Below are positions 10,291 through 47,972 of a DNA stretch of 64,000 nt, piece by piece (positions within the stretch are counted from its first letter, which is position 1; each line of letters starts with the position of its first letter). A program made the translations under genes and the position numbers. This DNA is from Alkalibacter rhizosphaerae (lineage in GTDB: Bacteria > Bacillota > Clostridia > Eubacteriales > Alkalibacteraceae), in the NCBI RefSeq assembly GCF_017352215.1, contig NZ_CP071444.1, forward strand, positions 806,001 through 870,000. The letters run 5' to 3'. Under the pieces are notes generated by a model, which was not told the DNA's origin, did not search any database, and was given only the letters and a program-made list of their open reading frames with translations.

Positions 10291-10350
10291 AAATCATAGG
10301 GACGGTTCTTTTGATCGCGCCCGTAATCAAAAGAACCGTCCCTATGATTT
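10291..10350. repeat. REP-like hairpin, type I (paired)
   Basis: Two perfect 25-base inverted arms around a 10-base loop, each containing AATCAAAAGAACCGTCCC or its complement. The hairpin lies eight bases beyond the stop of the FAD oxidoreductase gene and may terminate it. It is one member of a family seen across 10-48 kb. Confidence 0.85.
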
Positions 10351-30387: not shown

Positions 30388-30520
30388 GGTCATCCCCCAT
30401 TCCCATTTCAAATAAAACTTTATATCTTACAGTTTATCGTAAAAATTTCATGTGGACCAGTTTTATTGATGCTAATTTATGAAAATTGTTAAGACAAGGG
30501 GGCGTTTTAAATGTTTAAAT

Positions 30521-30588: not shown

Positions 30589-32997
30589 TCAAATCTGCTG
30601 TTTGTTCCACTTCGTTCGACCAAGGGCAACCATAGCCAGAATCAGCAGGATCCCGCCGGTCATCCAGCCGGCATCCATTGCCTTCCCTTGGGATGCTGCA
30701 TTCCCATCTCCTGTTGACGGATTGGCTTCCATGGTCTGCTCCACCAGGGCATAGTCGCTGAAATGGTCCGTTTCAAAGACGAAATAGGTCACTTTCCCTA
30801 TGGTCTTCTTCAGTCCCTGGATGATCTCCACAGAGCCATCTTCGGTAATATAAGCAATGGCCAGATCTTCCTTTGCCGCCTGCTGGGCGGTCAATGGAAG
30901 ATAGACGGATACGGGACCTGTTATGTCTTCATTGTCGATCTTTTCTTCCACCGGATCCCCCTCATAGGGCTCGATCCGCTTGTAAAGTTCGATGTCGTAG
31001 ACGCCAAGGAGCTCGTATCCCTTGCCAGCCAGAGCCGTTTCCACCGCATCCTGAATGGAAGGATCCAATTCTTTCTCCAAGGCCTTTACAAAGACGGTGA
31101 TCTTGGCAATGTCTTTGTCGTCTTTTTCCTCTACGACCACCTTGTCTTCCAAACCGGAGGCCATCACCCCGGTACCTTCATCTTCCTCTACAAATTCAAC
31201 CACCTGAGGAGGTCGGTCCCACTTGGCGTAGAGGGTCACATCTTCTTCGACGGCATACTCGTCAAAGACGATCTTCTCTGCATACTCCGTATCGAAATAC
31301 CATCCGTCAAAGAGGTAACCATCCCTGGTGGGATCTTCCGGTTTTACCGGATTTCCTCCCGGTGCCAAGATCTGGCCGGTGACGTCGCTGCCGCCCATGG
31401 AATCAAAGGTGACCAGGGGATAGGGCAGGATATGAACCACGCCGTTTTCATCGGGAGCGATGTAGTCGAATGTCTGGGCGACGTCCTGTTGGGTGATGTC
31501 CGGGTATTCGAAGGTTTCCACCGTTCCTTCCTCCGGAATAAGGATGTAGGAAGATTTCAACTGTATGTTTTTCTCCTCTGTCGTCTCCAGGGTGGTCATG
31601 TCGTCGTATTGGTAGTACGCCGCCACGGCATTGTAATCTCCTGTGTAATCATCCAGAAGGTCCACCTTGACTTCGCTGTAGTCGATGAGCAAAGCTCCAT
31701 CCAGCACAAATCCATTGATGATCCCTTTTTTGAAGTCTTTCACCAGGACGGTGCTCTCTTCAATGGTCACCGGTCCCATGGGATTGACGATGCCAACATT
31801 GTTGTTTTCGGGGCCTCTTTTCAAAGAGTAGGTTTCCATAATGTCAAAGCCGGTGAAGGATAATTCACTATTGGTGATGGAAACATAAGAAGGCAGGTAA
31901 TCGCCACGCAGTCCCATATAGTCGCTGGGGATGCTCATATAACGAGTAAAGCCTGTATTGATGCCAAACCAGAACCCGGTGGCCGTCACTTGGGCATTGG
32001 TAAGTCTGACGCTTCCTTGCAAGGCGTGGATGGCTGCCGTGCCGTCCGAATAAGGTCCCACTCCTGTTAAGAGGAGGGTTGCATTGTTGACATCAATGTC
32101 TCCAGATCCGGTAACTTCCACTTGCAGATCCGAGGACTGGGATAGCTGATCCAGGTAAATGTTTTCCGTTCCCGCGACGATGGCACTCTCATACCCATCG
32201 ACGGTCACTGCACTGTCCTGGGATATGGTGATATCCCCCTTCTCCGTAGAGATCCCCGTATCCCAAACTATGGTTGTCAGGGTTTGTTCCTTCGCTTCCG
32301 CCGGGACCCTGCTGTCACCCCGGTCCAAGTCGATGGTGGAATTTACGATGGTGATGGGATGCTCCACAAGTAGGGTCAAGGAAAGATCATTCATGTCTTC
32401 ATATCCCGCATAGAGCCCTACTCGAAATCCCTCCATGGCAATGTTGCTGTCTTCTACATCAATAGATGTACGGGCGATGATCCCAGCCTGATTATATGAG
32501 ATCTGCAGGTTGGAAGTTTCACTCCTATCCAAATAGTAAAGATCCATTGCCACATCGGCTTCGGATAGGCTCAAAGCACCCTTGGCCAGGATCCCAGTGT
32601 CCTGGACCTCCATGACCAGATCCGACAAAACGGTCAGGTCCCCCTCCGTATCGATTCCTACGTAAGAGCCTTTTAAGGTCAGGGTCCCTTCCCCCTGGAC
32701 GGTGAGATCGCCTTCCACATCGAACGCTGTGAAGACGTCCGATTCCAAGGTGATGTCCGAATCCACCTGTACCGTCGATCCCCCAGGGAGATCACAGGAA
32801 AAGGGAATGCTTTCCCCCACGCCGTCGAATGTCAGGGTTTTGGTGGTCTCGTCCCAAGCCCATCCGATACCGGAACGGCTGTCCGGGCTTGATACAAAGT
32901 CCTCAAATCCATCTGCCGCCAGTACCGGTCCGGGGAAAAACGACAGCAGCATCAGGAGACTCAACATGAGAGCCAATAATGCCTTGGTTCGTTTCAT
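30589..32997 (-). CDS. NPxTG cell-wall surface protein 1
   Basis: A secreted protein of about 802 residues. Order: signal peptide (1-28, ending PVLAADG); a long beta-helix-like region of irregular repeats such as GDLTVQGEGTLTLKG (about 30-540); one InlB-type B repeat ending DEYAVEEDVTLYAKW (about 555-620); a C-terminal domain shared with five neighbours, including FVFETDHFSDYALVE; then NPSTG (about 760), a hydrophobic helix and a basic tail. The tail is a cell-wall sorting signal with Asn-Pro instead of Leu-Pro. Start at ATG 32997 with AGGAG seven bases upstream. Probably expressed with the gene at 33067, 70 bases upstream. Confidence 0.82.
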   Translation of the reverse strand: MKRTKALLALMLSLLMLLSFFPGPVLAADGFEDFVSSPDSRSGIGWAWDETTKTLTFDGVGESIPFSCDLPGGSTVQVDSDITLESDVFTAFDVEGDLTVQGEGTLTLKGSYVGIDTEGDLTVLSDLVMEVQDTGILAKGALSLSEADVAMDLYYLDRSETSNLQISYNQAGIIARTSIDVEDSNIAMEGFRVGLYAGYEDMNDLSLTLLVEHPITIVNSTIDLDRGDSRVPAEAKEQTLTTIVWDTGISTEKGDITISQDSAVTVDGYESAIVAGTENIYLDQLSQSSDLQVEVTGSGDIDVNNATLLLTGVGPYSDGTAAIHALQGSVRLTNAQVTATGFWFGINTGFTRYMSIPSDYMGLRGDYLPSYVSITNSELSFTGFDIMETYSLKRGPENNNVGIVNPMGPVTIEESTVLVKDFKKGIINGFVLDGALLIDYSEVKVDLLDDYTGDYNAVAAYYQYDDMTTLETTEEKNIQLKSSYILIPEEGTVETFEYPDITQQDVAQTFDYIAPDENGVVHILPYPLVTFDSMGGSDVTGQILAPGGNPVKPEDPTRDGYLFDGWYFDTEYAEKIVFDEYAVEEDVTLYAKWDRPPQVVEFVEEDEGTGVMASGLEDKVVVEEKDDKDIAKITVFVKALEKELDPSIQDAVETALAGKGYELLGVYDIELYKRIEPYEGDPVEEKIDNEDITGPVSVYLPLTAQQAAKEDLAIAYITEDGSVEIIQGLKKTIGKVTYFVFETDHFSDYALVEQTMEANPSTGDGNAASQGKAMDAGWMTGGILLILAMVALGRTKWNKQQI

Positions 32998-33019
32998 CAA
33001 ATCACTCCTTTTATTTTTT

Positions 33020-33057
33020 GGGGACGGTGACTTTTTTGCAAAAAAGTCACCGTCCCC
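33020..33057. repeat. REP-like palindrome, type II
   Basis: The same perfect 38-base palindrome as at 30521, here nine bases beyond the stop of the surface-protein gene at 33067. Confidence 0.9.
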
Positions 33058-33066
33058 ATTAAAAAC

Positions 33067-35220
33067 TTACACACTTCTTTGTTTTCTACTCGTAATCAAA
33101 AGAACCGTCCCCAGGAAGAAGAAACTGAGGATCAACAGAAAAACGGAGCCAGTGTTTGCCGATTCCAAGAGACCAGTCTTGGGGTTGACCTCGTCTTGTA
33201 GCTGGACCAATGCATAAGTAGAGAAATGGTCCGCTTCAAATTCCACATAGGCTTTCCCATCCACCTCCACCATCATACCGGTGAGGATGGTGACATTCCC
33301 GCTTCCGTCCACATATGCCATGGCCAGGTTGTTCATGTCGACTTGCTCTGAAGTCAACTGGATCCGTACCGTAATGGGCGCCGTGATCTCTTCATTTTTC
33401 ACCATGACTTCCGTGATGGTTCCATCCGTATGTTCGATCCGCTTCATCAGCGTCAGATCATATACATCCAAAAGGTCATATCTTTTCCCTTTCAGCTGTT
33501 GTTCCACGATAGCCTGTATTACCGTATCCAAGGTTGTCTTGTCCCCTTGGAGATATACGGTGATTTTCATGGTGTCTTCTTGGTCTTTTTCCGGCAATAG
33601 GATATTTCCTTCCATGTCAGCTGCTCCAGCAACCGATCCGCTTTCCTGTTCCAGATAAGTGATGACCACTGGATCTTTGGTCCACTGGGCGTAGAAGACC
33701 ACGTCTGTTGCCCCCATCGTGTAAGCGCTGCCGGGCGCCAGTTTCGTGCCCGAGGCATCGGATTTTGTGTTCCAACCGGCAAAGGTGTATCCCATTTTTG
33801 CCAACGTACCTGCATTGGCAGATACAATCACTTCGTCATCCATATGGTAGGCGGCATCATCCGTTGGTACCGTCCCCGAGGTGGATCCGTTCCCGGCATA
33901 GGAAACCTGGTATTCTTCCATGGTCCACTGGGCATACAGGGTCACATCTTCTGTTCCCATGACGAAGGTTTCATCCGGTTCGTACGCCGTTCCGCTTCCA
34001 TCAGCACTGGAGTTCCAGCCTGTAAAAAGATGTCCGGTTTTTTCAAAAGTGCTAGCCAGTGCGATGACCGTATCATCCATGTTGTAGACCTTCGTGTCCA
34101 CTGGCGCCGTTCCACCAGTGGATCCGTTGCCGTCGTAGGTGACAGTATAGTCTACCATGTTCCACTGGGCATAGAGCACCGTATCTTCTTCCACATAGAT
34201 GGCATCCTCTACCCCGTAGGCCGTTCCGCTGCCGTCTTCTTCCGTATTCCATCCAGCAAATATGCTTCCGGCTTTGTCTGCTACTGCGGGTTTTTCCACA
34301 GCCTCTTCCCCATCGTTGACATGGGACGTTTTCAGGAGTGTAGCCCCGTCGTAGAACTCCACCTTGGTAAACTCATAGGGAATGGCCAGTGCATCCATTT
34401 CCACTCCGATGGATTGCAACAGGGTTGTGGCGCCTGTATCCTTGTTGATCTGGTACAATCCTCCGTTACCGGTGCTGTCGTACAAGGTGCCATATAAAAC
34501 ATTGTTGATCCGATCAAAGCCCATCCCTTGGGCGTATGTGATGTCGACCCCCAAATTGCCGATAAAAGAGGCTTGGCCGGTAGGTGCGTAAATTTGATAA
34601 ATGCTGTCCGTGGTGATATCGATGCCGTACAGACCGCCGTTGCCGTTAAAAGCAATGTCGATGATGGTCGATGAATTCGTCATTGGGCCGACCAAAGTGA
34701 CCGTAGCATCTACCAAGTCGATGGTATACAAATTTGCGCCAGTGGACACATATGCCGTTTCCGTGGTTGTATCGTAGGCGAAACCTGTTACGTTGTAACT
34801 ATTCAATCCGGTGTTCCCGATTTCCGTCAATGCCCCTGTATCCGTATCTACACCATACAGGATCCCGGTAAAAGAGATCATGTACAGATCCTTCCCGACA
34901 AAATCTCCTCCGGCCATGAAAGTCCCCAAGGTACTTGGAGTTATGTTGGTGATGGTCCCGTCCGGGATGCCGATGGTCGCCAGACCTTGCGGTGTCTGTT
35001 CAACGTTCACACTGTATGCGACCCAGCCATATGCAGTGATGGAACCACTTTTCAATGTCAATGTTCCTTGAGGAGTGTTATCCGTTTGATTCCTTGTTAT
35101 CCCATCCACTCCAGGGTCTACCCCCAAACCCGAATCTGTATCCTGAGCGATGATTCCTCCCGGAATCCAGGTAAAGATCAACAATAAAGCCAATAATAAT
35201 GAAAAGATTTTTGATTTCAA
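33067..35220 (-). CDS. NPxTG cell-wall surface protein 2 with propeller-like and InlB repeats
   Basis: A 717-residue secreted protein. Order: signal peptide (1-25); a region of beta-propeller-like blades (about 75-285, for example TGALTEIGNTG and TGATTLLQSIG); three InlB-type B repeats (about 290-505), each with FAGWNT or similar and ending YAQW; the C-terminal domain common to this locus; NPKTG (679-683), a hydrophobic helix and a basic tail. The start is TTG with GAGGAGG seven bases upstream. A type I repeat (33091-33112) is translated within the final helix (GTVLLIT), so the anchor helix is partly made of repeat sequence. Confidence 0.85.
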   Translation of the reverse strand: MKSKIFSLLLALLLIFTWIPGGIIAQDTDSGLGVDPGVDGITRNQTDNTPQGTLTLKSGSITAYGWVAYSVNVEQTPQGLATIGIPDGTITNITPSTLGTFMAGGDFVGKDLYMISFTGILYGVDTDTGALTEIGNTGLNSYNVTGFAYDTTTETAYVSTGANLYTIDLVDATVTLVGPMTNSSTIIDIAFNGNGGLYGIDITTDSIYQIYAPTGQASFIGNLGVDITYAQGMGFDRINNVLYGTLYDSTGNGGLYQINKDTGATTLLQSIGVEMDALAIPYEFTKVEFYDGATLLKTSHVNDGEEAVEKPAVADKAGSIFAGWNTEEDGSGTAYGVEDAIYVEEDTVLYAQWNMVDYTVTYDGNGSTGGTAPVDTKVYNMDDTVIALASTFEKTGHLFTGWNSSADGSGTAYEPDETFVMGTEDVTLYAQWTMEEYQVSYAGNGSTSGTVPTDDAAYHMDDEVIVSANAGTLAKMGYTFAGWNTKSDASGTKLAPGSAYTMGATDVVFYAQWTKDPVVITYLEQESGSVAGAADMEGNILLPEKDQEDTMKITVYLQGDKTTLDTVIQAIVEQQLKGKRYDLLDVYDLTLMKRIEHTDGTITEVMVKNEEITAPITVRIQLTSEQVDMNNLAMAYVDGSGNVTILTGMMVEVDGKAYVEFEADHFSTYALVQLQDEVNPKTGLLESANTGSVFLLILSFFFLGTVLLITSRKQRSV
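33091..33112. repeat. Type I REP-like half repeat inside a surface-protein gene
   Basis: CGTAATCAAAAGAACCGTCC plus two bases, in frame within the membrane helix of the sorting signal. Confidence 0.8.
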
Positions 35221-35363
35221 CTTCCGTCCTCCTCTTTTGATTTTTAATGTTTATGATTATTTATAATTTTATCTCATTTTACATTAAATCATAAACATTT
35301 CCAAGGGTATAATTCATTGTATCAGACTATCAACCACACGCTTCAGTATACCAAAAATATCCG

Positions 35364-35400
35364 GTCACGAACCGTGACAAATAAATTGTCAATGACAAAT
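35364..35400. promoter_or_regulatory. Two-part palindrome upstream of surface protein 3
   Basis: GTCACG-AAC-CGTGAC is followed by ATTGTCAATGACAAAT. The same two blocks occur at 41377-41423 upstream of another surface gene. It lies in the 245-base gap between divergent surface genes, 66-100 bases before the start at 35466, and may bind a shared regulator. Confidence 0.55.
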
Positions 35401-35465
35401 GCTGTCACGATTCTTATATGGATCCATATGGGATAGAATAAAGGTAAAGAAAGGAGCGATGATAT

Positions 35466-38111
35466 GTGATGCGAAAGAATACAGCGTGGTTGTTGACGGC
35501 ATTTTTGCTATTTGGTCTGATTTTATCCCCCTCCGGAGTGCTTTCCGCAGAGGGATCGGCGGAAGACCCGGTCCTGATGGCCCCGGCGGTATGCCGACTG
35601 GACTATACAGACGGTACACCATCGGAATTTTACGCAACGATTCAGGAAGGTTTTCTGCAGGCAGTGGCTGGCCAGGATCTGGTGCTTTTGCAGGATGTGA
35701 CTTTGAACCAGAGACTAAGCCTGGCGGGCACGGATTGCACCCTGGTCACCAACGGATTTGATTTGTCCGTTGTGGTCCCCGATGGACTGGGTATGGATGC
35801 TTTTCACGCCACTGTCCGATTGGACGACAGCGGAGGTGGCGGATTTTATGTCACCGGAACGGGACGGGGAGCCATGATCTCCAACTTTTCCGACATCACC
35901 CTGTCCTCCGTGGAATGCCTGCCTAATCCCGGCTATGGATCAGATAACGTGGGCGCTTACGTTCGGGAATTCAGCAACCTGAATGTACAAGGAAATGTTC
36001 AGGGTGTGACCGATGGACTATATATAGCGACGTCAAGCACCGCAACCATCGGTGGAGACGTGGTTTCCATCGCCGGCAAGGGGATCCAGGCTTTGAGTAC
36101 GGGGGCCATCACCGTAGAAGGAGATGTTGTCGCCGAAACGGAGGGGATCTATCATAGTGGAACAGGCCAGATCCACACCAAGGGCAACATAACATCCAAA
36201 ACCGGCACCGCCATCCAAACGGAATGCGACGATCCGTCCAACCTGATCACGGTGGACGGGAATGTCACCGTCACCGGCAACGACTCCCTGGGGTATGAAT
36301 GGGGAATTTTTGCAACTCGCCATTCCAATGTTATTGTGAAAGGTTCCGTCACTAGCGCCATTGACGGGGTCAAGTCCTGGCAGTCCGCACAAGTGGATGT
36401 CTTGGGAGATGTTACATCCAGCGGTTTTCAGATCGTCCAGGTCCAATATGGCGGCCAAGTCAACATCGGCGGATCCCTGGTCAGTACGGACCTTGCTGCA
36501 GAAGGTGTCTATGTCAATAACGCCGGCACGGTGACCATTGACGGCTCCATCACCACGGACCCCGATCAATACATCTTTGTGGCAGAATGGCTGCGAAGAG
36601 AAGGAGTGGACGATTCCTACCGACCGACCATGAAAACCGGTTACTACACTTATACGGACGACTCTCTGGAAAATCGGGTTTTCGTCAAGAAAACAGTAGT
36701 CACACCCGGGGCCTTGCAATTTGAAGCCGGAAGTTATGGTACCTACGAAGGTTACAACGGCTACATTTGGGTGGAACGTCTGGACGGAGATGACGAGAAA
36801 GTCACTGTTGATTATGCTTCTGTGGATGGCACCGCCATTGGCGGGACCCACTACAACACTTTGAGCGGGACTCTGACTTGGCAGGACGGGGATAGGGATC
36901 GGAAGTACATCCCCTTTACCGTCTACAACGACTCCACTTACAACGGATATTTGAACCTGACCGTGGAGCTGTCCAACCCGACGGGAGGAGCCACCTTGGG
37001 AGCGCAAAACCCCTTGAGTGTTCAATTAAGCGACAACGATACTCCACTGGCACCAACTGGGTTAACTGCCACTGCCGGAGATCAGGAAGTGGTCCTGGAG
37101 TGGGATGAAATAAAAGACACCTATTACCGTGTCTATTATTCCACAGAATCCGGAAATTTCAACGAGACAGACAAGGTGTCCGTCTACGGGAAAACGACCT
37201 ACACCTTTGAAGGATTGGACAACCAGACCACCTATTACTTCATGGTCAAGGCCGTCCACAATATTTACCCCAGTCTGGCTTCGGAAGAAGTATCTGCAAC
37301 CCCCTTCACCACCTACACCGTTGCCTTCGACGCCAACGGCGGAAGCAGTGTGGAAGCACGGATGGTGGCACATGGGGATCTGCTTCCTTCACCGGCAGAT
37401 CCTGCCAAGGAAGGATACACCTTCTTAGGCTGGTATGTGGATGAAGACTTGACCCAACTGTGGGATTTTGCCACAGAGACCGTCGTCTCCAACAACACCT
37501 TGTATGCCGGATGGGAAACCATCCCTCCCGCTGTTGCAGTCATCAAGACAGACGATGAAACAGGCGTGGAGGTCCAGGGGATCGAAGATGCGGTCACCAT
37601 CCCGGAAGAAGAAATGGAAGGGATCAAGGAAGTTGAAATCTACGTGGCTGCCAAGGAGATCCTGTTGAAAGGAGACCTGCTGGCAGAAGTGGAAGACCAA
37701 CTGGAACAACAGGGATACTCCCTGCTAACCACTCTGAACATCCAGCTTCGAAAGATCGTGAAAGACTACGAGGGCATAAAAAAAGACCTGTTGGTAGAGA
37801 ACAAGGACATCACCGGGGACTTGACCGTTCGCATCCCCTTGACGGAAGAACAGGCCGCCATGGATGACCTGGCCATCGCCTATGTGGATGGAGACGGCAA
37901 TGTAAGCATTTTGACCGGCATGGTGGAAACGGTAGGAGATAAAACATATTTTACATTTGAGACAGACCACTTTTCCATCTACGCCCTGGTGGAAGCAACC
38001 AGACCGGTGAATCCGGCTACTGGAACTGCCGGAAGCATGGGATTGGGTATGCTGGCATCGTTGCTTGGTTTGGCAGGCTTGGGCATGGTTTTGTGGCGGA
38101 AGCGGAAATAA
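35466..38111 (+). CDS. NPxTG cell-wall surface protein 3 with Calx-beta and FN3 domains
   Basis: An 881-residue secreted protein, the only one of the six on the plus strand. Order: signal peptide (1-30); beta-helix-like repeats (about 60-400); a Calx-beta domain (about 415-525, with DYASVDGTAIGGTHY and LTVELSNP); a fibronectin type III domain (about 527-615, with PTGLTATAGDQEVVLEWDE); one InlB-type repeat (about 617-685); the common C-terminal domain; NPATG (849-853), helix and WRKRK tail. Start is GTG at 35466, nine bases after AGGAG, or the adjacent ATG. Calx-beta and FN3 modules are adhesion or spacer domains. It converges on the next gene across a type I hairpin. Confidence 0.87.
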   Translation: MMRKNTAWLLTAFLLFGLILSPSGVLSAEGSAEDPVLMAPAVCRLDYTDGTPSEFYATIQEGFLQAVAGQDLVLLQDVTLNQRLSLAGTDCTLVTNGFDLSVVVPDGLGMDAFHATVRLDDSGGGGFYVTGTGRGAMISNFSDITLSSVECLPNPGYGSDNVGAYVREFSNLNVQGNVQGVTDGLYIATSSTATIGGDVVSIAGKGIQALSTGAITVEGDVVAETEGIYHSGTGQIHTKGNITSKTGTAIQTECDDPSNLITVDGNVTVTGNDSLGYEWGIFATRHSNVIVKGSVTSAIDGVKSWQSAQVDVLGDVTSSGFQIVQVQYGGQVNIGGSLVSTDLAAEGVYVNNAGTVTIDGSITTDPDQYIFVAEWLRREGVDDSYRPTMKTGYYTYTDDSLENRVFVKKTVVTPGALQFEAGSYGTYEGYNGYIWVERLDGDDEKVTVDYASVDGTAIGGTHYNTLSGTLTWQDGDRDRKYIPFTVYNDSTYNGYLNLTVELSNPTGGATLGAQNPLSVQLSDNDTPLAPTGLTATAGDQEVVLEWDEIKDTYYRVYYSTESGNFNETDKVSVYGKTTYTFEGLDNQTTYYFMVKAVHNIYPSLASEEVSATPFTTYTVAFDANGGSSVEARMVAHGDLLPSPADPAKEGYTFLGWYVDEDLTQLWDFATETVVSNNTLYAGWETIPPAVAVIKTDDETGVEVQGIEDAVTIPEEEMEGIKEVEIYVAAKEILLKGDLLAEVEDQLEQQGYSLLTTLNIQLRKIVKDYEGIKKDLLVENKDITGDLTVRIPLTEEQAAMDDLAIAYVDGDGNVSILTGMVETVGDKTYFTFETDHFSIYALVEATRPVNPATGTAGSMGLGMLASLLGLAGLGMVLWRKRK

Positions 38112-38133
38112 CGGGAAATAAAAGAAAACAAAG

Positions 38134-38197
38134 AAATCAAAGGGACGGTTCTTTTGATTCCACTCATATGGAATCAAAAGAACCGTCCCTTTGATTT
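38134..38197. repeat. REP-like hairpin, type I (paired), between convergent genes
   Basis: Two perfect 29-base arms with a 6-base loop, the longest copy in the window. It lies 22 bases after one surface gene and 12 bases after the convergent one and probably terminates both. Confidence 0.9.
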
Positions 38198-38209
38198 TAT
38201 TCCTTTACA

Positions 38210-41200
38210 TCAAACAGTTCGCTTGCGTTTTAGCACCACATAGCCTGCCAGCAAGATCCCGAATCCTGCAACCGGAAGAACTCCCGTCATCCCAGACTGG
38301 GTCGTCTCTTCCACACCCGTATCCGGGTTGGTTTCCTGGTCTCCCAGTGCCTGGATCAGTGCATAGTTGCTGAAATGATCCGTTACAAACTGCACGTAGA
38401 CTTTATCGCCTACAGTCACTTTTGTTCCCGTAATAACTGTCACATTCCCTGCATCGTCGATGTAGGCAATGGCTAGGTCGTCTTTGTCCACATCGTCGCC
38501 GGTTAGTAGTACCCGAACGGTGATGGGACCGGTGATGTCGGCATTGTCGATGGTCGATGTAGTAACGGTTCCGTCAAATTCCGTCACTTTTTTCATGAGG
38601 TTGATGTCCAGTATATCCAACAGTTCGTATCCCTTGTCTTTCAGATCCGCCATTACCTTGCTTCGAATGGCATCATCCAGGGATCCTGCCACGACATGGA
38701 CATACACTTCCACTTCTTTGGTATCCGGATCTTCTAGTTCCGGAAGTATCACGTTGGTTTTCATTCCTTCCGTAACCAATCCCGTTTCCGGATCGGTTTC
38801 CACGTATTTTACCACCGGCGGGATCTTGTCCCACTGGGCATACAGGGTGACGTTGCCCAAAATACCAAAGGTGGCTCCCGGTGCATACGTTTCGCCCGTT
38901 CCATCTGCCTTGGTGTTGAAACTATTGAAGGTATACCCCAATAAAGTAAATGCATTGTCTTTCACCGTTACGGTAGCATCCGTCAGGTAAGGCCCTTCCG
39001 TATCCGTTACGGTCCCGGTGCCTCCGTTGCCGTCATAGGTGACCAGATACAGAGGTTCGACAATGACAGCATTCAGTGCCTGCCCCCAGTAAGATATGAC
39101 ACCCATCTCCAACTCTTCCAGGTTGGTAACAGACTGGCAGTTGAATTCTCCGATGACAACATCAGCGATATAGGCGTCAGCCGGCTCTTTAAAGACGGCA
39201 TTGGACAGGATGATCTGTGCATGTCCCGTTTCTTCCAGGGTCTTGTCGTCTCCTGCAAATATGGCGGCATTCCCGGAAAGGGCATCCAAGGATACCGGTT
39301 GCAGATCCGATGCACAGCTGGCGTCCACGTAGCTTTGGTCGATGGTGATATCTCCGCCGGTCACTTCCGTGACCTCATTATAGGTCCAACCGGTGACCAG
39401 ACCGAATTGGTGTCCGTAAACGACCAAGTGGCTCAGTTTCACCGTGATCTCCGTTCCAGCCATGATTCCATAGCCTTTGTTGCTCTGATAACTTGGCTCA
39501 AGAGCTGTTGCTACAACGGTTGCATCCGGACAATTCTCGATCCAAGTGGAACCGGTGCTGTTGATCCCTTTTGCCAAACCCGAAATATCAACCACAGCAA
39601 TGTTTTTTAAAACCACATTGCCTGGAGATTCGCTCTGGGACCATTCGCCGTATGCATAATCTTCGTATCGATAAGAGGAACCGACACGCAGACCTGTCCA
39701 TTCGGAATCAATGTTCAACTCGTCCAGTCCATCCACGGTCAAGTTTCCTGTGATCCGCATGCCGTTGTGGCTGCTTCGAATGGTGATGGTACCGCAGTCC
39801 AGGAACTGGGCGTCTCCATTGCCTTCCACGTCGCTGTCCGGACCGAGACCAACTCGGATCCCCGTATGATACTGGGTCACGATCTCAAGCTCATCCACAT
39901 TTTGAACAAGTAGGTCTCCAATGACCCGCATGCCCGTATGATCTGCAGTGATGTCCAATGTTCCCACGTTGGTGATGGAGGCGTTTCCGTTGGATCCGGA
40001 GTCAGTGTCAGCGCCAGGTCCTACACGGAACCCGTTTTCATCCTCCGTTACGACAAACATGATTTCCACCTGATCGATGACCAGATTTCCCATGGCCCGG
40101 ATGCCGTTGTCCTCTGCTGTTATGGACACATCTCCGCAATTGGTGATGCTCACATCTCCATCCACTCCCGTGTCCTGATCCCCGTCGCTGTCCGGACCGG
40201 ATCGAATCCCGTTATAATCCTCCGCAAAAATCGTCAGGTCTTGAATGTTGTCCAAAATGACGTTTCCGGAATTTCGAATGCCGTTGTCATAGCCGCTTAA
40301 ATCGACGGTCGTACAGTTTTTGATGGTCACGTCTCCGTTTTCCAGGATGCCAAGACCATCGAAATAGTCGACATCATAGGGTTTGGCGTGGATGGCGGAA
40401 TTGTCATCAGAATAAATATCCACCGTGGTCACACCGTCTATGGTCACATTTCCGCCCATCAACCGGATCCCGGCTTCGTAGGAATCAATGGATAGAGAGG
40501 TCCCATTCATGATGGAAACATTTCCTGCCGAATCCGTATAATGTTCCACATCATAATCCGGTCCACCCCGGATCCCGGAATAATCGGATGATGTAAGATC
40601 CATGGAGTCAAAACCGTCAATGGTTATATCCCCCAATACTCTCATGGCGCTGTCGTAGGAATCAAGGATCACATCCCCAACATCGGTAATGGTCAGATGT
40701 CCGCCATCTTGGTTGACAGATTCGCCTCCCGGACCGACTCGGATCCCCGAATCCCCGTCGGAATAACCGCTTAACATACTCAATCCAGTGATGTCCAAAT
40801 TGCCGGTAGCCCGAATGGCATGATAATCAGCTTGGATGGTCAATGACCCGGACCCGCTGATGGTCAGGTCTCCATCGCAGACGATGCCGTTCCCGTTTGG
40901 TGAATTGACCATATTGGTTCCGTTGACAACGATCTCCGTCCCGTCGGGTACCAGAATGGCAAACTCGTAATAAGCATTCAGGGATACAAGCAGCGCATCG
41001 TTCAAGGTGATCCCGTTCAATGTCAGGACTTCACCTGTAGGATCCCATGTCCATCCTTCACCGGATGTCCCAGGATATCCTTCGTCCTCCGCAGCCAACG
41101 TGAAATCCAAGTAGGCTTGTGGCGGCGTTTCCGGCTCCATCAAGTTCAGTGTCTCCGTTTCTTTCAACTTGGCCGGATCTTCCACAAAGTCTTCTTCTGC

Positions 41201-41320
41201 CTTGTCTTCATATTGCGGCCCCAGTAGTGGCTGGTCCCCTTCTATGGCCTGTGCCGGTATGGTTCCGAAAACCAGCAACAAGGACAAGAACAGAACGATC
41301 AGTTTTGATTTCAAATGCAT
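38210..41320 (-). CDS. NPxTG cell-wall surface protein 4, beta-helix repeats
   Basis: A 1036-residue secreted protein. Order: signal peptide (1-25); a conserved entry segment GEGWTWDPTGEVLTLNGI (about 103-120); a long series of about 40-residue repeats with recurring units such as GIRVGPG and GDITIDGFDSMDL (about 140-600), likely a parallel beta-helix; a further region to about 770; one InlB-type repeat; the common C-terminal domain; NPDTG (998-1002), helix and KRKRTV tail. The start may be the ATG at 41320 or a TTG at 41314, which has better spacing to AAGGG and matches the TTG start of protein 2. The C-terminal 165 residues are almost identical to protein 5. Confidence 0.85.
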   Translation of the reverse strand: MHLKSKLIVLFLSLLLVFGTIPAQAIEGDQPLLGPQYEDKAEEDFVEDPAKLKETETLNLMEPETPPQAYLDFTLAAEDEGYPGTSGEGWTWDPTGEVLTLNGITLNDALLVSLNAYYEFAILVPDGTEIVVNGTNMVNSPNGNGIVCDGDLTISGSGSLTIQADYHAIRATGNLDITGLSMLSGYSDGDSGIRVGPGGESVNQDGGHLTITDVGDVILDSYDSAMRVLGDITIDGFDSMDLTSSDYSGIRGGPDYDVEHYTDSAGNVSIMNGTSLSIDSYEAGIRLMGGNVTIDGVTTVDIYSDDNSAIHAKPYDVDYFDGLGILENGDVTIKNCTTVDLSGYDNGIRNSGNVILDNIQDLTIFAEDYNGIRSGPDSDGDQDTGVDGDVSITNCGDVSITAEDNGIRAMGNLVIDQVEIMFVVTEDENGFRVGPGADTDSGSNGNASITNVGTLDITADHTGMRVIGDLLVQNVDELEIVTQYHTGIRVGLGPDSDVEGNGDAQFLDCGTITIRSSHNGMRITGNLTVDGLDELNIDSEWTGLRVGSSYRYEDYAYGEWSQSESPGNVVLKNIAVVDISGLAKGINSTGSTWIENCPDATVVATALEPSYQSNKGYGIMAGTEITVKLSHLVVYGHQFGLVTGWTYNEVTEVTGGDITIDQSYVDASCASDLQPVSLDALSGNAAIFAGDDKTLEETGHAQIILSNAVFKEPADAYIADVVIGEFNCQSVTNLEELEMGVISYWGQALNAVIVEPLYLVTYDGNGGTGTVTDTEGPYLTDATVTVKDNAFTLLGYTFNSFNTKADGTGETYAPGATFGILGNVTLYAQWDKIPPVVKYVETDPETGLVTEGMKTNVILPELEDPDTKEVEVYVHVVAGSLDDAIRSKVMADLKDKGYELLDILDINLMKKVTEFDGTVTTSTIDNADITGPITVRVLLTGDDVDKDDLAIAYIDDAGNVTVITGTKVTVGDKVYVQFVTDHFSNYALIQALGDQETNPDTGVEETTQSGMTGVLPVAGFGILLAGYVVLKRKRTV

Positions 41321-41376
41321 TCACCCTTTCTCTTAACGTTATAAATATGCATAAATACACAAAATCATCATATCAC

Positions 41377-41413
41377 ACAAAACCCTTGTCACGGTTCGTG
41401 ACAAGGGTTTTGT
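41377..41413. promoter_or_regulatory. Long palindrome upstream of surface protein 4
   Basis: Perfect 17-base arms around GTT, containing TTGTCACG and CGTGACAA, followed directly by TTTGTCATTGACAAA (41409-41423). The combination matches 35364-35400. It lies 57-103 bases upstream of the gene start and is a candidate shared operator. Confidence 0.6.
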
Positions 41414-41433
41414 CATTGACAAATGATAAACTT

Positions 41434-41479
41434 AAGTGGGGACGGTGACTTTTTTGCTCAAAAGTCACCGTCCCCACTT
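41434..41479. repeat. REP-like hairpin, type II
   Basis: Arms AAGTGGGGACGGTGACTTTT and its complement around TTGCTC, seven bases beyond the stop of surface protein 5. It is the exact reverse complement of the copy at 44870 apart from one end base. Confidence 0.9.
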
Positions 41480-41486
41480 GCACAAC

Positions 41487-44400
41487 TTAAAACGCTTTTC
41501 TTCTTCGTTGGATCCAGAGGATCCCTACTGCCAGCAACCAGATACCGAGGAAAGACAATAGGGACATTTCGTTGCCGCCAATACTGCTTCCTTCATCCAT
41601 CGATCCTGTGGATGGGTTGGCTTCCTGATCTCCCAACTCCTGGATCAAAGCATAGTTGCTGAAGTGATCCGTTACAAACTGCAGGTAGACTTTATCGCCT
41701 ACCGTCACTTTTGTTCCCGTGATCACCGTTACATTCCCTGCATCGTCGATGTAGGCGATGGCCAGGTCGTCTTTGTCCACATCGTCGCCGGTGAGAAGTA
41801 CCCGAACGGTGATGGGGCCGGTGATGTCGGCGTTATCTATGGTCGATGTAGTGACCGTTCCGTCAAACTCCGTTACTTTTTTCATGAGACTGATGTCCAG
41901 TATATCCAACAGTTCGTATCCCTTGTCTTTCAGATCCGCCAATACCTTGCTTCGAATGGCGTCATCCAGGGATCCTGTTGCAACATGGACGTATACTTCC
42001 ACTTCTTTGGTATCCGGATCTTCCAGTTCCGGCAAGGTCACGTTGGTTTTCATTCCTTCCGTAACCAATCCCGTTTCCGGATCCGTTTCTACATATTTGA
42101 CGACCGGCGGGATCTTGTTCCACTGGGCATACAGGGTCACATTTCCTTTAATGACAAAGGAGGCTCCCGGTGCATACTCGGTTCCTGATCCGTCGGCTTT
42201 GGTGTTCCAACTGTCATAAGTGTATCCCAATAAATCAAAGGTGTTCTCCAAAACCGTCACGGTTGCATCTGTCAAGTAAGGATCCTGGGTGTCTTCCAAA
42301 CTGCCTGTCCCGCCGTTGCCATCATAGGTAACGTAATACTGGGGCTCCAACACCACGTTGTTGAGGGCTTCTCCCCAATGGGTGATGGAATCCATCATCA
42401 GTTCCTCTTCATTGGTAAAGGACTGGCAGTTGAACTGACCGATGACCACGTCGGCAATGTAGCCGTCTACCGGCGTCTTGATAACCGTATCAATGAGGAT
42501 GATCTGGGCATGACCGGTGTCTTCATAAGCTTTGTCGTCGCCGGCAAAGATGGCAGCGTATCCCCCAAAAACTATTGGTCCTTCATAACCGATCATCATC
42601 TCAGGGGCTGCATTGGCATCTACATAGCTTTGGTCGATGGTGATGTCTCCACCTGGTGACTGGTTGATGTCCGTGTATCCGTAAGCGTCGTATACCCAGC
42701 CGGTGACCAGTCCAAACTTGTCCCCGTATACATTCAAATGGCTGTTTACTATATCGATGGTGGTGCCTGCCAGGATCCCGTATCCTACATTGTCTTCGTC
42801 GTCTTTTAGTGCCTGTTCCGATCCGGCCACCGTTGCCACGATTTCTGCAAAGGTGCAATTTTCCAACAAGGTGGATCCGTAGCTGTGGATCCCTTTGGCA
42901 TAGGCGTTGATGTCCATGGCTGCAACGTTCTTCAAGATGACATTGCCTGGAGAATCGCTTTGGGAATTGCCGTAGTCGGATCTTTCAGGATTGTCATAAT
43001 AATAGGACGATCCCACCCGTAGCCCTGTCCATTCAGACTGGATGTTTAGGGCAGTCAATCCATTGATGGTCAAATCCCCGGTGATGCGCATGCCGTTGTA
43101 GTCACTGGTAATGGACAAGGTTCCACAATTGAGGATCTCTGCATTGCCGTCGCTGGCAGTGATGATTTCTTCATCCCCCAAACCGACACGAATGCCGTTT
43201 CGGTTTTGAGAGGTAACATCAATGTTGGTCACATTCTCCATGTACAGATCGCCCATGGCGCGAATGGCATTATCATAGGCGTCGATGTCCAAGGTCCCGC
43301 AATCGGTGATGGTGATATCTCCGTTGGCAGCCGTCTGGCGATTCTGGGTTGGTCCGATGCGCAACCCACTATTATCGTCACAGACGATAGTGAAAGTCCC
43401 AACATTGTCAACAGTCAAGTCTCCAATGGCTTTAATTCCATCATAATATGATTCGATCTCAAAAGTTTCCACGTTGGAGATGACAACGCTTCCTAAAGCT
43501 CCAGTATCTTTTGTGTCTCCGTCTCCAGGTCCCACCATCATTCCTCGATTATCCGAAGAAATCAAAGAAACGGAATCTACGTTGTCGATCAAAACATCAC
43601 CTAGAGATCGGATGCTGTTTTCGTAGGAATTTATGGAGATATCCCCGCAACTGGTGATGGAGGTTTCGCCCAAGGTTCCAGGTGTATACCCATCGACGTT
43701 ATACGGTCCGGACCGAAGACCGGAAGCATCGTCGGAAAGGATCGTCAGATTTGTGATCCCGTCGATGAAAATTTCGCTCATGGTTCGGATCCCCGACTCC
43801 TCGGAATCGATATTCACTGTATCCACGTTGGAAAGATAGACGTCCCCGTTGGATCCCATGTCGTTCTCCCCATAGTCACCGGCTCCGGCACGGATGCCAT
43901 TATAGGAGGATGATGTCAGATCCAGCATCGTCAGTTGAGATATTCTTAAATCACCAATGGCACGGATGCTGTTGTAATAGGTATCCACCCAGAGGCTGCC
44001 GCTTCCATTAATGGTCAGATCTCCATAACAGAGAATGCCATTCCCGTTGTTGTGAGAAATACTGTTCATGCCCGTCACGGTAATGGTGCTGCCGTTTGGC
44101 ACCTGGATGGCAAAAGCATGGGCTGCCAAGGTACTGCTCAGCTCTGACGTGGTGATAATGGACATATTTATTCCATTCAAGCTCAATACTTTCGTAGCTG
44201 CATCCCAAGTCCATCCTTCTCCACTTTCTCCAGGATAGGAAGGATCGGTAGCTTCCAAGGTAAAGTCCAGATAATCCGGTGGGACAAAATCCAGCTCCAG
44301 TTCATCTTCCGGCTCTGCCATCAATGGTTCCATCAGTGGTTCCATTAAAACGACCGGCTCTTCCGGTTCCTCTGTCGGATCCGGTGGCAAATCTTCGTCC

Positions 44401-44678
44401 TGTGGTGGATCTTCCTGCACAGGGGGTTCTTCAATCAAGGATGGGTCGTTTTCTTCCAAGGGTGGTTCATTATAGTCAGCCGGGGGATCTTCTCCCTCTG
44501 GTGCCGGTTCTTCCAAATCTGCCGGTGGATCCTCTTCCAACGGAGGATATTCATCTGCAGGTGGCAAGGTTTCTAGTGCTGGTGGATCTTCCACCAGTAC
44601 GTCGGCCATGGCCTGTAACGGCAGGAATGAGAAGACCATAAATAGTGCAAACATCAGTACCAATACTCTGCGTTTCAT
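41487..44678 (-). CDS. NPxTG cell-wall surface protein 5, acidic proline-rich N-terminus and beta-helix repeats
   Basis: A secreted protein of about 1063 residues. Order: signal peptide (1-25); an acidic proline-rich stalk of about 110 residues (repeated EDPPAD/EEPP units), absent from its paralogues; the GEGWTWD entry segment; beta-helix repeats with GIRAGAG/GLRSGPY-type turns (about 190-600); InlB-type repeat; common C-terminal domain; NPSTG (about 1021), helix and RRRKAF tail. I chose the ATG at 44678, seven bases after AGGGAG, over a TTG 21 bases earlier. The final 165 residues differ from protein 4 at only a few positions while the rest has diverged, indicating recent recombination. Confidence 0.86.
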   Translation of the reverse strand: MKRRVLVLMFALFMVFSFLPLQAMADVLVEDPPALETLPPADEYPPLEEDPPADLEEPAPEGEDPPADYNEPPLEENDPSLIEEPPVQEDPPQDEDLPPDPTEEPEEPVVLMEPLMEPLMAEPEDELELDFVPPDYLDFTLEATDPSYPGESGEGWTWDAATKVLSLNGINMSIITTSELSSTLAAHAFAIQVPNGSTITVTGMNSISHNNGNGILCYGDLTINGSGSLWVDTYYNSIRAIGDLRISQLTMLDLTSSSYNGIRAGAGDYGENDMGSNGDVYLSNVDTVNIDSEESGIRTMSEIFIDGITNLTILSDDASGLRSGPYNVDGYTPGTLGETSITSCGDISINSYENSIRSLGDVLIDNVDSVSLISSDNRGMMVGPGDGDTKDTGALGSVVISNVETFEIESYYDGIKAIGDLTVDNVGTFTIVCDDNSGLRIGPTQNRQTAANGDITITDCGTLDIDAYDNAIRAMGDLYMENVTNIDVTSQNRNGIRVGLGDEEIITASDGNAEILNCGTLSITSDYNGMRITGDLTINGLTALNIQSEWTGLRVGSSYYYDNPERSDYGNSQSDSPGNVILKNVAAMDINAYAKGIHSYGSTLLENCTFAEIVATVAGSEQALKDDEDNVGYGILAGTTIDIVNSHLNVYGDKFGLVTGWVYDAYGYTDINQSPGGDITIDQSYVDANAAPEMMIGYEGPIVFGGYAAIFAGDDKAYEDTGHAQIILIDTVIKTPVDGYIADVVIGQFNCQSFTNEEELMMDSITHWGEALNNVVLEPQYYVTYDGNGGTGSLEDTQDPYLTDATVTVLENTFDLLGYTYDSWNTKADGSGTEYAPGASFVIKGNVTLYAQWNKIPPVVKYVETDPETGLVTEGMKTNVTLPELEDPDTKEVEVYVHVATGSLDDAIRSKVLADLKDKGYELLDILDISLMKKVTEFDGTVTTSTIDNADITGPITVRVLLTGDDVDKDDLAIAYIDDAGNVTVITGTKVTVGDKVYLQFVTDHFSNYALIQELGDQEANPSTGSMDEGSSIGGNEMSLLSFLGIWLLAVGILWIQRRRKAF

Positions 44679-44869
44679 CTTTCTCTCCCTTCTTGACAAA
44701 AAATAATAACACCATATATCGCATTTTCTTTTTTCCCTAACACAACCACCTTCTTTCTTGCAATTCTATTATTATTTAAAATATTATGAGCGTTATTCTC
44801 TATAGTTGATAATATTGGAATAAAATGTCATAACCTTATCTACAATATATCACAACTGCCTGCTTATGC

Positions 44870-44916
44870 AAGTGGGGACGGTGACTTTTGAGCAAAAAAG
44901 TCACCGTCCCCACCTT
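44870..44916. repeat. REP-like hairpin, type II, inverted relative to 41434
   Basis: Arms GTGGGGACGGTGACTTTT and complement around GAGCAA, 14 bases beyond the stop of surface protein 6. Confidence 0.9.
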
Positions 44917-44930
44917 GATACCTCGATACC

Positions 44931-47267
44931 TTAAAACGCTCGTCTTCTCTTCCAAGCAACTGCTGCTATCCCCAAAAGTGCCACTCCCACATATGGCAGT
45001 ACTCCCGAAGAATCCTCCGTTGGATCCACGTCGGTCTCATATCCCGTGGCCGGGTTGGCTTCCCGGGTCATTTCCACCAATGCATAAGTGGAAAAGTGAT
45101 CGGTTGTGAATACAAAGTATGGGTCTTCCCCGACGGTCACTACGGACCCTTCCATGATGGTCACTTCTCCTGCTTCATCGATAAAAGCCATGGCCAGTTT
45201 TTCCTTAGCGGCCTGGTCTGCTGTCAAGGGGATGCGCACCGTGATCTCTCCGGTGATATCCTCGTTGTCGATTTCCATTTCCGTTGTGACGCCATTAAGA
45301 TCCGTCACTCTTTTAAACAAACCGATGTCGTACACGCCAAGCAGGTCGTACCCTTTTCCCGCAAGCTCTGTCAAGACCTTGTCTTTGACGTCTTCCTCTA
45401 CATCAGTTTCTTCCGCCTTCACAAACACGGTGATCTCCACAATGGACTCATCCTCTGTTTCCGGCAAGTTGACGTTCTCTTCCATGCCTGCCGCTCCCAC
45501 TCCTGTGGTGTCGTCTTCTTCCACATAGGTGATCTTTTGAGGATCCCTGGACCATTTGGCGTACAAGGTCGTATTTTCCGTCATGGCTTCCGCTTCAAAA
45601 TCCCATGGATCTTCAAATGTTTCATCATCGGTAAACCACCCATCAAACGTGTAGCCATAGCGATCAGGATTGGAAGGTTCCTCCGCCTTTTCGCCTGGCA
45701 GCACTGTCTGACTTTCTACCGGATCCCCACCGTTGCTGTCAAAGGAGACCACTGGATACGTGGATATGACCACTTCCCCTTCCAAAGTTGCTTCAATGTA
45801 GTCAAATATCAGGGATTCCGCCAACTGCATCTGCAGGTCCTTCAGTTCTGTTTCATAACGTTCTACGGATCCATCCACCGGCACTTTGATGTAGCAGTCT
45901 TGCAAGACGATGTGATCCGGTTCCACTTCTGAGACCATGATGGGCGCACTCACCGTTCCGATGACGGCCTGGATCATGGCCGATTGATCCCCTACAACTC
46001 CAATCGTCACGTTGCTGGTATGGAACAAAACTTCGCCCGTGCCCTGCACACCGGCTGCAATGCCGGAATGCACATCATCAATAATAGCGCTGGTCTCCGT
46101 CAATGTGATGTTTCCGTTTGCCGTAACCAATCCCAAACTTGGCATCCCGTATTCAAGGTCAGCATCGTATCCAAAGCCCCGGATCTCCACCTGGCTGTTG
46201 TTGACGGTGATGTTTTGTGTATCCAAAACCGTTTCGTCCATAGATCGATTGGAGGGTCGAATTTCAAAGCCTCCGCTGGCAGCGACCATAAAATCCGCCA
46301 ATCCCACGTTAGAATCGGTGATGCTGATGTCGCCATCCTTCGCCAGCAGGCCATGTCCGGGATAGTAGGATTCCACCAAGCCGCTTCCTGTCAGATCAAG
46401 ACTGGATCCGGTGATGTTGATGTTCCCGGAAGGAGCAATTCTTCCTTGCAAGGTAAAGGGTGCTTCCGCAGCAAAAAATCCGTAATCCATGTACCCTGCT
46501 ACGATGGCATTTTGATATCCTTCTACGTCCACTGTACTGGCTGTTATATCCACGTCTTCTTCCACGGATGCTATGGCCGCAGAATTGAATTCCACTTCCG
46601 ATAATGTCAAGGTCATGGAGACATTGCTATCCGTGATGGAGACCCCCATCTCTTCCGGTTCCACCTGGGAAATGCTTTTTGATCCTCCAAACATCCCGCT
46701 GTTGATCCCGAAAAAGAAATTTTCCAGTGTCAAATCCGTATCGTCCAACAGGACCTTTCCGTATTCAGCATACAAACCCAGCAAACTGAAAGGCGGAAGA
46801 GAAGACAAGCCGGTTTCTGTCGGGAGATACTCCGGATGGATCCCTTGCATTGCAATGGTTGTATTGCTTAAGACAAGATTTCCCTCGGCTACTATTCCAA
46901 CAAAGGGTTCTTTTATGACGAGGGACCCGTTCCCGGTGATTGTCAGGGAACCCCAGCCCCAGATTCCAACTTCCGATGTTTCACTGGCAGTAATGACGTT
47001 TTCTCCCACCAGTACTACTGTTGAATCGTCCGGCAACAGAAACGCCGATCTCTTTTCCCCCAAATCAAAGTCGGTCAGGGTCAAGGTGTTGGTGTCCTCG
47101 TCCCAGGAAATGTCCTCCCGACCCGTCAGATCCGGATAATCGTCTCCGGCCGGATCCCGAAAGTCAAAGTCGACATAATCTGCCACGGCAAAGATCCCAA
47201 CCGGAAAATAGGTCAGTACCAACAATAAGGCCAATAACAATACGATGATTCTTTTTGAAGCTTGCAT
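44931..47267 (-). CDS. NPxTG cell-wall surface protein 6
   Basis: A 778-residue secreted protein organised like protein 1. Order: signal peptide (1-28); WDEDTNTLTLTDF entry segment (about 55-67); irregular beta-helix-like repeats (about 80-520); one InlB-type repeat (FDSNGGDPVESQTV to TENTTLYAKW, about 535-600); common C-terminal domain with FVFTTDHFSTYALVE; NPATG (738-742), helix and KRRRAF tail. GGGAGGG precedes the ATG. Its 5' end faces the toxin-antitoxin pair across about 170 bases. Role probably adhesion or cell-wall structure; no catalytic motif seen. Confidence 0.84.
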   Translation of the reverse strand: MQASKRIIVLLLALLLVLTYFPVGIFAVADYVDFDFRDPAGDDYPDLTGREDISWDEDTNTLTLTDFDLGEKRSAFLLPDDSTVVLVGENVITASETSEVGIWGWGSLTITGNGSLVIKEPFVGIVAEGNLVLSNTTIAMQGIHPEYLPTETGLSSLPPFSLLGLYAEYGKVLLDDTDLTLENFFFGINSGMFGGSKSISQVEPEEMGVSITDSNVSMTLTLSEVEFNSAAIASVEEDVDITASTVDVEGYQNAIVAGYMDYGFFAAEAPFTLQGRIAPSGNINITGSSLDLTGSGLVESYYPGHGLLAKDGDISITDSNVGLADFMVAASGGFEIRPSNRSMDETVLDTQNITVNNSQVEIRGFGYDADLEYGMPSLGLVTANGNITLTETSAIIDDVHSGIAAGVQGTGEVLFHTSNVTIGVVGDQSAMIQAVIGTVSAPIMVSEVEPDHIVLQDCYIKVPVDGSVERYETELKDLQMQLAESLIFDYIEATLEGEVVISTYPVVSFDSNGGDPVESQTVLPGEKAEEPSNPDRYGYTFDGWFTDDETFEDPWDFEAEAMTENTTLYAKWSRDPQKITYVEEDDTTGVGAAGMEENVNLPETEDESIVEITVFVKAEETDVEEDVKDKVLTELAGKGYDLLGVYDIGLFKRVTDLNGVTTEMEIDNEDITGEITVRIPLTADQAAKEKLAMAFIDEAGEVTIMEGSVVTVGEDPYFVFTTDHFSTYALVEMTREANPATGYETDVDPTEDSSGVLPYVGVALLGIAAVAWKRRRAF

Positions 47268-47912: not shown

Positions 47913-47972
47913 GCTTGATGGGACGGTGACTTTTTTGCAAAAAAGTCACCGTCCCCATCGGAAAATCAAGCT
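47913..47972. repeat. REP-like hairpin, type II, one base deleted
   Basis: GATGGGACGGTGACTTTTTT pairs with the complementary arm ending CCGTCCCCATC; one G is missing on the left. Outer GCTTGAT and ATCAAGC extend the stem. It lies between the convergent toxin and cohesin-protein genes and overlaps the latter's stop. Confidence 0.85.

Follow-up and report, generated by a model that had tools for sequence, protein, structure and literature searches.

We propose that six neighbouring surface proteins, together with a seventh encoded elsewhere in the same genome, share a C-terminal base in which a divergent ZU5-like domain precedes an NPxTG sorting signal for a class B sortase, with a probable self-nick at an HF/S turn in the domain; we put the probability of this combined explanation at roughly 0.55. 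The seven proteins would be secreted, and their outer parts, which differ and are binding or enzyme-like, would sit on an exchangeable C-terminal base. After export, the hydrophobic tail would hold the protein in place, and the sortase would cut NPxTG between T and G and join the threonine to peptidoglycan, as the motif and the enzyme class suggest. The ZU5-like domain would nick itself between F and S during folding, which would leave a stretch of 16-18 residues, made up of the last strand and NPxT, covalently on the wall. The outer part would then be held solely by strand pairing within the domain and might be released under pull or unfolding.

If the HFS turn is indeed cut, sortase-attached proteins of this kind would lack an unbroken covalent link to the wall, sortase-substrate assays would change, and surface display could be released by force or unfolding. 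An animal receptor mechanism would also be linked to a simple bacterial one that is testable in one purified domain. Even without cleavage, a previously unclassified clostridial C-terminal module is placed in the ZU5 superfamily, and a clear NPxTG/class B pairing is given for a one-sortase genome.

Six surface proteins with a common C-terminal module

The window, that is the whole 64,000-base stretch that was analysed (G000:C1:806001-870000), lies in a genome of one contig (2,449,552 bases, 98.9% complete). All six open reading frames were confirmed at window positions 30589-47267, five on the minus strand and S3 on the plus strand, each with an N-terminal signal-peptide-like stretch as judged by eye. 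S1 (803 aa; 30589-33000, minus) has, after its signal peptide, a beta-rich, beta-helix-like part, one Listeria-Bacteroides (List_Bact) repeat, the module and an NPSTG tail, and S6 (778 aa; 44931-47267, minus), with an NPATG tail after the module, is its paralogue (28% alike in the N-terminal part). S2 (717 aa; 33067-35220, minus) consists of a propeller-like DUF4394 domain, three List_Bact repeats, the module and an NPKTG tail, and S3 (881 aa; 35466-38111, plus) of a beta-helix-like part, a Calx-beta and an FN3 domain, a List_Bact repeat, the module and an NPATG tail. S4 (1036 aa; 38210-41320, minus) has a repetitive beta-rich N-terminal part, a List_Bact repeat, the module and an NPDTG tail; its paralogue S5 (1070 aa; 41487-44699, minus) ends in the module and an NPSTG tail. 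The preliminary description had named beta-helix, propeller, Calx-beta and FN3 as the differing N-terminal parts. Calx-beta and FN3 are clear in S3 and the propeller corresponds to DUF4394, whereas the beta-helix is weakly indicated, by a sub-threshold Cthe_2159 match and a weak NosD match. That description missed the InlB-B type Listeria-Bacteroides repeats, which precede the module in one to three copies in all six proteins.

The shared C-terminal domain claimed there is borne out: the last ~210 residues align end to end, and DHFSxYAL, NPxTG and the tail are present in 6/6. The module itself spans about 155 residues and is followed by NPxTG, a hydrophobic helix and a basic tail. On the minus strand it occupies 30739-31206 in S1 (HFS codons 30757-30765; NPSTG 30709-30723), 33202-33669 in S2 (HFS 33220-33228; NPKTG 33172-33186), 38351-38818 in S4 (HFS 38369-38377; NPDTG 38315-38329), 41640-42107 in S5 (HFS 41658-41666; NPSTG 41604-41618) and 45072-45539 in S6 (HFS 45090-45098; NPATG 45042-45056). 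The S3 module lies on the plus strand at 37527-37994 (HFS 37968-37976; NPATG 38010-38024).

The earlier picture of a set of tools displayed on one common base also fits the sequences well. The N-terminal parts are pairwise 24-32% alike (52% for S4/S5) compared with 38-56% for the module (96% for S4/S5), and in S4 and S5 the module appears to have been copied as a unit. In that pair, identity is 52% upstream of the module and 96% inside it, and at four-fold degenerate sites it is 35% and 75%, respectively (P 6e-9). Similarity drops again right after the module, with the near-identity in DNA covering exactly the module stretch. This module-limited similarity suggests that most likely one of the two modules replaced the other as a whole; no other pair among the six shows such a jump.

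A profile of the module, run over the whole genome with 12 candidates, recovered seven copies only: those of S1-S6 and one outside the cluster, at G000:C1:1915807 (NPKTG, E 3.8e-44). The seventh protein (G000:C1:1912000-1917500) is a beta-rich chain of ~1000 aa with an NPKTG tail and without a clear Pfam domain. The two closest congeners have no module, and one of them has no sortase at all; the module set thus does not belong to the core of the genus.

Directly downstream of S1 lies a gene for a 906-aa lipoprotein-like protein without a Pfam match (window 27691-30411, minus). An Rfam search of the window and of the other loci gave no match, and we discarded control by a c-di-GMP riboswitch, as in C. 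difficile, on the same result. Promoter-like sites were no more numerous than in shuffled sequence.

A single class B sortase and nine NPxTG tails

The six motifs read, in order, NPSTG, NPKTG, NPATG, NPDTG, NPSTG and NPATG, with 28-39 residues, hydrophobic and then basic, after the glycine. Among 51 DNA sites in the genome that could encode NPxTG, nine lie at the end of an open frame and are followed by a tail that is hydrophobic and basic, namely those of the six cluster proteins, the seventh module protein and two module-free proteins; a profile of the tail recovered the same nine genome-wide, the next match having an E value of 0.42. The module-free proteins are a NosD/right-handed beta-helix protein with an NPKTG tail (G000:C1:172.6 kb) and a small Big_5 protein with an NPTTG tail (G000:C1:1675.9 kb). 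The features of class B substrates (NPxT[GN], a hydrophobic stretch and a basic tail) are present in all nine, NPxTG is invariant and P4 is Asn in 9/9. No other PxTG tail family was seen in a search through which motifs far from both the tail model and the LPXTG_anchor model could slip, and additional LPXTG_anchor profile matches had no PxTG-type tail where the tail was readable. NPxTG is also recognised as a variant signal by NCBIfam family NF033846 (Rumino_NPXTG), which S3 alone matches, below the cut-off (13.1 vs 23.5 bits).

The preliminary description had staked its reading on the presence of a sortase, and one was found: the family PF04203 has one match and one candidate gene in the genome. 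By TIGR03064, which has a cut-off of 153.75 bits and gives it 241 (E 1.1e-71), the enzyme belongs to class B, and its best relative in the PDB is B. anthracis SrtB (2oqw, E 1.6e-51), in alignment with which the catalytic residues are present (GHH motif at 130, TLSTC at 220 and the arginine of ARF at 231). The gene stands alone, ~760 kb from the six-gene cluster and away from iron-uptake genes, beside genes that we named by eye as encoding an EFR1-type ferredoxin, a cobalamin-dependent-synthase-like protein and a YfiH-like protein. Published class B signals are NPxTG (NPKTG) or NPQTN, and that of B. anthracis SrtB is NPKTG (PMC11987632). Seven genomes of the same order with a single sortase each combine a class B enzyme with NPKTG-tailed proteins, which shows that the pairing exists; the search used an NPxTG-weighted model, and the frequency of other motifs does not follow from it. 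Taken together, the predicted NPxTG anchoring by the class B sortase is well supported.

The invariant Asn-Pro had earlier been read as pointing to a dedicated sortase with a specificity unlike that of LPxTG enzymes. The sortase exists and is of class B, but it is an ordinary member of that class and the sole sortase of the genome rather than a dedicated extra one; since class B enzymes already use NPKTG and NPQTN, an enzyme 'unlike LPxTG' is of a known kind. We regard a second, unseen sortase dedicated to the six proteins as next to negligible. It would suit the earlier wording and the ~760 kb between the known gene and the cluster, but a one-contig genome that is 98.9% complete has a single PF04203 match, and the same NPxTG is found on the seventh module protein and on two module-free proteins.

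The arrangement resembles the B. anthracis SrtB-IsdC pair in its class B enzyme and NPxTG-type signal, and C. difficile in that a class B enzyme is the sole sortase and serves several unrelated surface proteins. In C. difficile, the single class B sortase recognises a (S/P)PXTG signal (PMC4155245; PMC5118464), whereas P4 here is Asn in all nine tails, not S/P. Unlike the Isd-type class B systems, the six proteins contain no NEAT domain and no isd-like genes lie beside srtB, and we rejected a role in Isd haem uptake on these grounds. The substrates here also differ from other class B/NPKTG substrates in sharing a ZU5-like base.

The base also occurs with endings other than NPxTG: in relatives elsewhere, the module is followed by various PxTG motifs, a plain transmembrane helix, a dockerin or SLH. 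This bears on an alternative in which the NPxTG tails are vestigial or mere membrane anchors and the sortase serves other substrates. In its favour, module proteins without a sorting motif occur in five sortase-free genomes, and two genomes of the same order have a module followed by a plain transmembrane helix. Against it, NPxTG is invariant in the nine tails, and a sortase is present in 21/21 genomes with motif-bearing modules compared with 4/9 with motif-less ones (P 9e-4), a comparison in which the groups were picked by tail and selection may have played a part. We consider this alternative improbable. It should be noted that only 5-7 residues link the module domain to NPxTG; such short linkers are unusual for sortase substrates and count against our preferred explanation.

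The module as a divergent ZU5-like domain

The preliminary description had put no name to the module, and its ZU5-like nature was not seen there. No Pfam family recognises it, and PF00791 (ZU5), whose gathering score the module does not reach, has no match in the genome. An AlphaFold2 model of the S6 module is a confident beta-rich domain with one extra helix (pLDDT 97). A PDB sequence search with the module gave chance-level matches only, and a Foldseek search with the model gave nothing convincing. A second structural alignment placed several ZU5 and GAIN entries, including ankyrin ZU5 (Z 7.0, 3.6 A over 117 residues) and the CD97 GAIN domain (Z 6.5), near the top, in a tie with GH66-type enzymes and axonemal proteins, at values within reach of unrelated models. 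As a Z score of 7.0 is too low on its own, we sought an independent bridge through bacterial domains that Pfam itself assigns to ZU5.

A Pfam ZU5 search across the phylum gave 33 genomes, the domains of which were aligned (A5). Compared with this alignment by hhalign, the module scored 97.6% and 94.9%; with the HFS end removed from the comparison the value was 26% (P 7e-4), and the reversed and 12 column-shuffled controls gave 1% or less. The model of the A5 domain matched ankyrin ZU5 with Z 15.2, CD97 with 12.0, NLRP1 with 10.6 and CARD8 with 9.8, and as modelled the bacterial domain is unmistakably of ZU5/GAIN type. The identification of the module as a divergent ZU5-like domain is well supported, even though the module falls below the Pfam cut-off.

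It is through the bacterial ZU5 profile that the module connects to the ZU5/GAIN/Nup98 superfamily, from other members of which it differs in its divergence below Pfam ZU5, its extra helix, a sortase signal on the C-terminal side and a cleavage that here is predicted. As in PIDD, the FIIND of CARD8 and NLRP1, and the adhesion GPCRs, the domain stands directly before an anchor or effector part and has an HF-S turn before its last strand. The GAIN-ZU5-Nup98 superfamily is reportedly treated by Liao et al. (2014).

A possible self-cleavage site beside the anchor

In the AlphaFold2 model, the residues D-H-F-S form a coil (147-150) between the last two strands (139-146 and 151-156), and from the serine of HFS to the threonine of NPxT there are 16-18 residues in the six proteins. 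Self-cleaving domains carry their site just before the last ZU5 strand, as HF/S in PIDD and Nup98 and as SF/S in CARD8 and NLRP1; the reaction needs the serine and a buried phenylalanine, and the cut falls between F and S (PMC3210808). The HFS of the module matches in position the HF/S (HL/S,T) site of the self-cleaving ZU5/GAIN/Nup98 domains, and it is found in 10/10 sequences of the full-length module set. Its conservation in the 56 named loci was not used as evidence, since that scan was seeded with DHFS and the argument would be circular. Across 391 genomes of the class, a motif-free profile of the module (A4) added few copies: a single genome has two with HFS, and the others are one with RFS, one HLS-like and one from which the motif has been lost. 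HFS is also present in three copies from the same order or class that had been picked up by profile. Among the bacterial Pfam-ZU5 loci, 26 of the 29 that were readable have HF[ST] (S in 18, T in 8), the exceptions including RID, KLG and YFS. The Pfam match ends upstream of the motif, so HF[ST] played no role in finding these loci.

This conservation favours a functional site. However, the ZU5 domains of ankyrin and UNC5 are not known to cut themselves, and the fold alone is therefore no proof of the reaction. From fold, motif and position together, we would give self-nicking of the module at HF/S just under even odds. The chief alternative, which we hold to be a serious contender if clearly short of probable, keeps the same class B anchoring and makes the module a rigid, uncut ZU5-like spacer, in which HFSxY would be conserved for the packing of the turn before the last strand by the histidine, phenylalanine and serine, much as in ankyrin ZU5 domains that do not cleave. 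It gains from the likeness of the fold to ankyrin ZU5, which is not known to cut itself, and from relatives that have RFS, HLS or no motif in an otherwise intact domain, as well as from the RID, KLG and YFS of the Pfam-ZU5 copies. On the other hand, the motif-independent set of loci has only S or T at the place of the nucleophile when HF is present, as self-cutting requires, and packing alone should tolerate more residues there.

The Pfam-ZU5 loci also indicate where such domains sit. SLH-like sequence follows straight after the HF[ST] place in 22/25, one further locus has a CWB2 domain and one has SLH further on; Pfam confirms five of the SLH cases and the CWB2 case. With SLH, CWB2, PxTG, transmembrane and dockerin neighbours all represented, the ZU5-type domain tends to adjoin an anchor, whatever its type. 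Three clostridial loci (L033, L047 and L059, the first confirmed by Pfam) have a DHFS module followed directly by a dockerin-like C-terminus, which places the base on cellulosome-type anchors as well. We tentatively suggest, at somewhat less than even odds, that an anchor-adjacent, self-cutting domain of ZU5/GAIN type may serve bacteria generally as a 'break-away' mount, whether the anchor is a sortase signal, SLH, CWB2, a transmembrane helix or a dockerin. Every module protein here would then be a nicked, non-covalent two-piece assembly with a wall stump of 16-18 residues, a counterpart of the GAIN domain and stalk of adhesion GPCRs.

That ZU5 autoprocessing is general among bacterial surface proteins carrying adhesion modules was proposed earlier (Zhang et al. 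2012, PMC3482391), and bacterial ZU5 is called an 'autopeptidase' in the ShfP paper (PMC11488536); the parts of these two papers on which we draw do not describe a sortase-anchored, anchor-adjacent form. Whereas the neighbour in the bacterial Pfam-ZU5 proteins is mostly SLH, here it is a sortase signal. A full-text literature search, with most subscription journals outside its coverage, found no description of a sortase-anchored ZU5 form.

Next to the cluster, window 47966-49588 (minus) encodes a TM-anchored protein with two Cadherin-like domains. By eye its N-terminal part resembles a cohesin, for which there was no Pfam match, and its ectodomain ends in EHTSDYLL, which resembles the HFSxYAL end of the module. 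The adjoining gene (49595-52375, minus) encodes a subtilase with Big_3 domains and a C-terminal type I dockerin (E 6e-12), and the two products could form a two-protein cohesin-dockerin display of the protease.

Finally, the 11-mer GGGACGGTTCT occurs eight times in the window (10299, 10332, 19148, 26662, 27675, 33101, 38142 and 38179) against an expected 0.01. One of these copies lies within the coding sequence of the S2 tail and a facing pair lies at 10299-10342. Another facing pair, at 38142-38189 in the interval where S3 and S4 converge, makes up a perfect 20-bp hairpin. The 11-mer is probably a repeated palindromic element.
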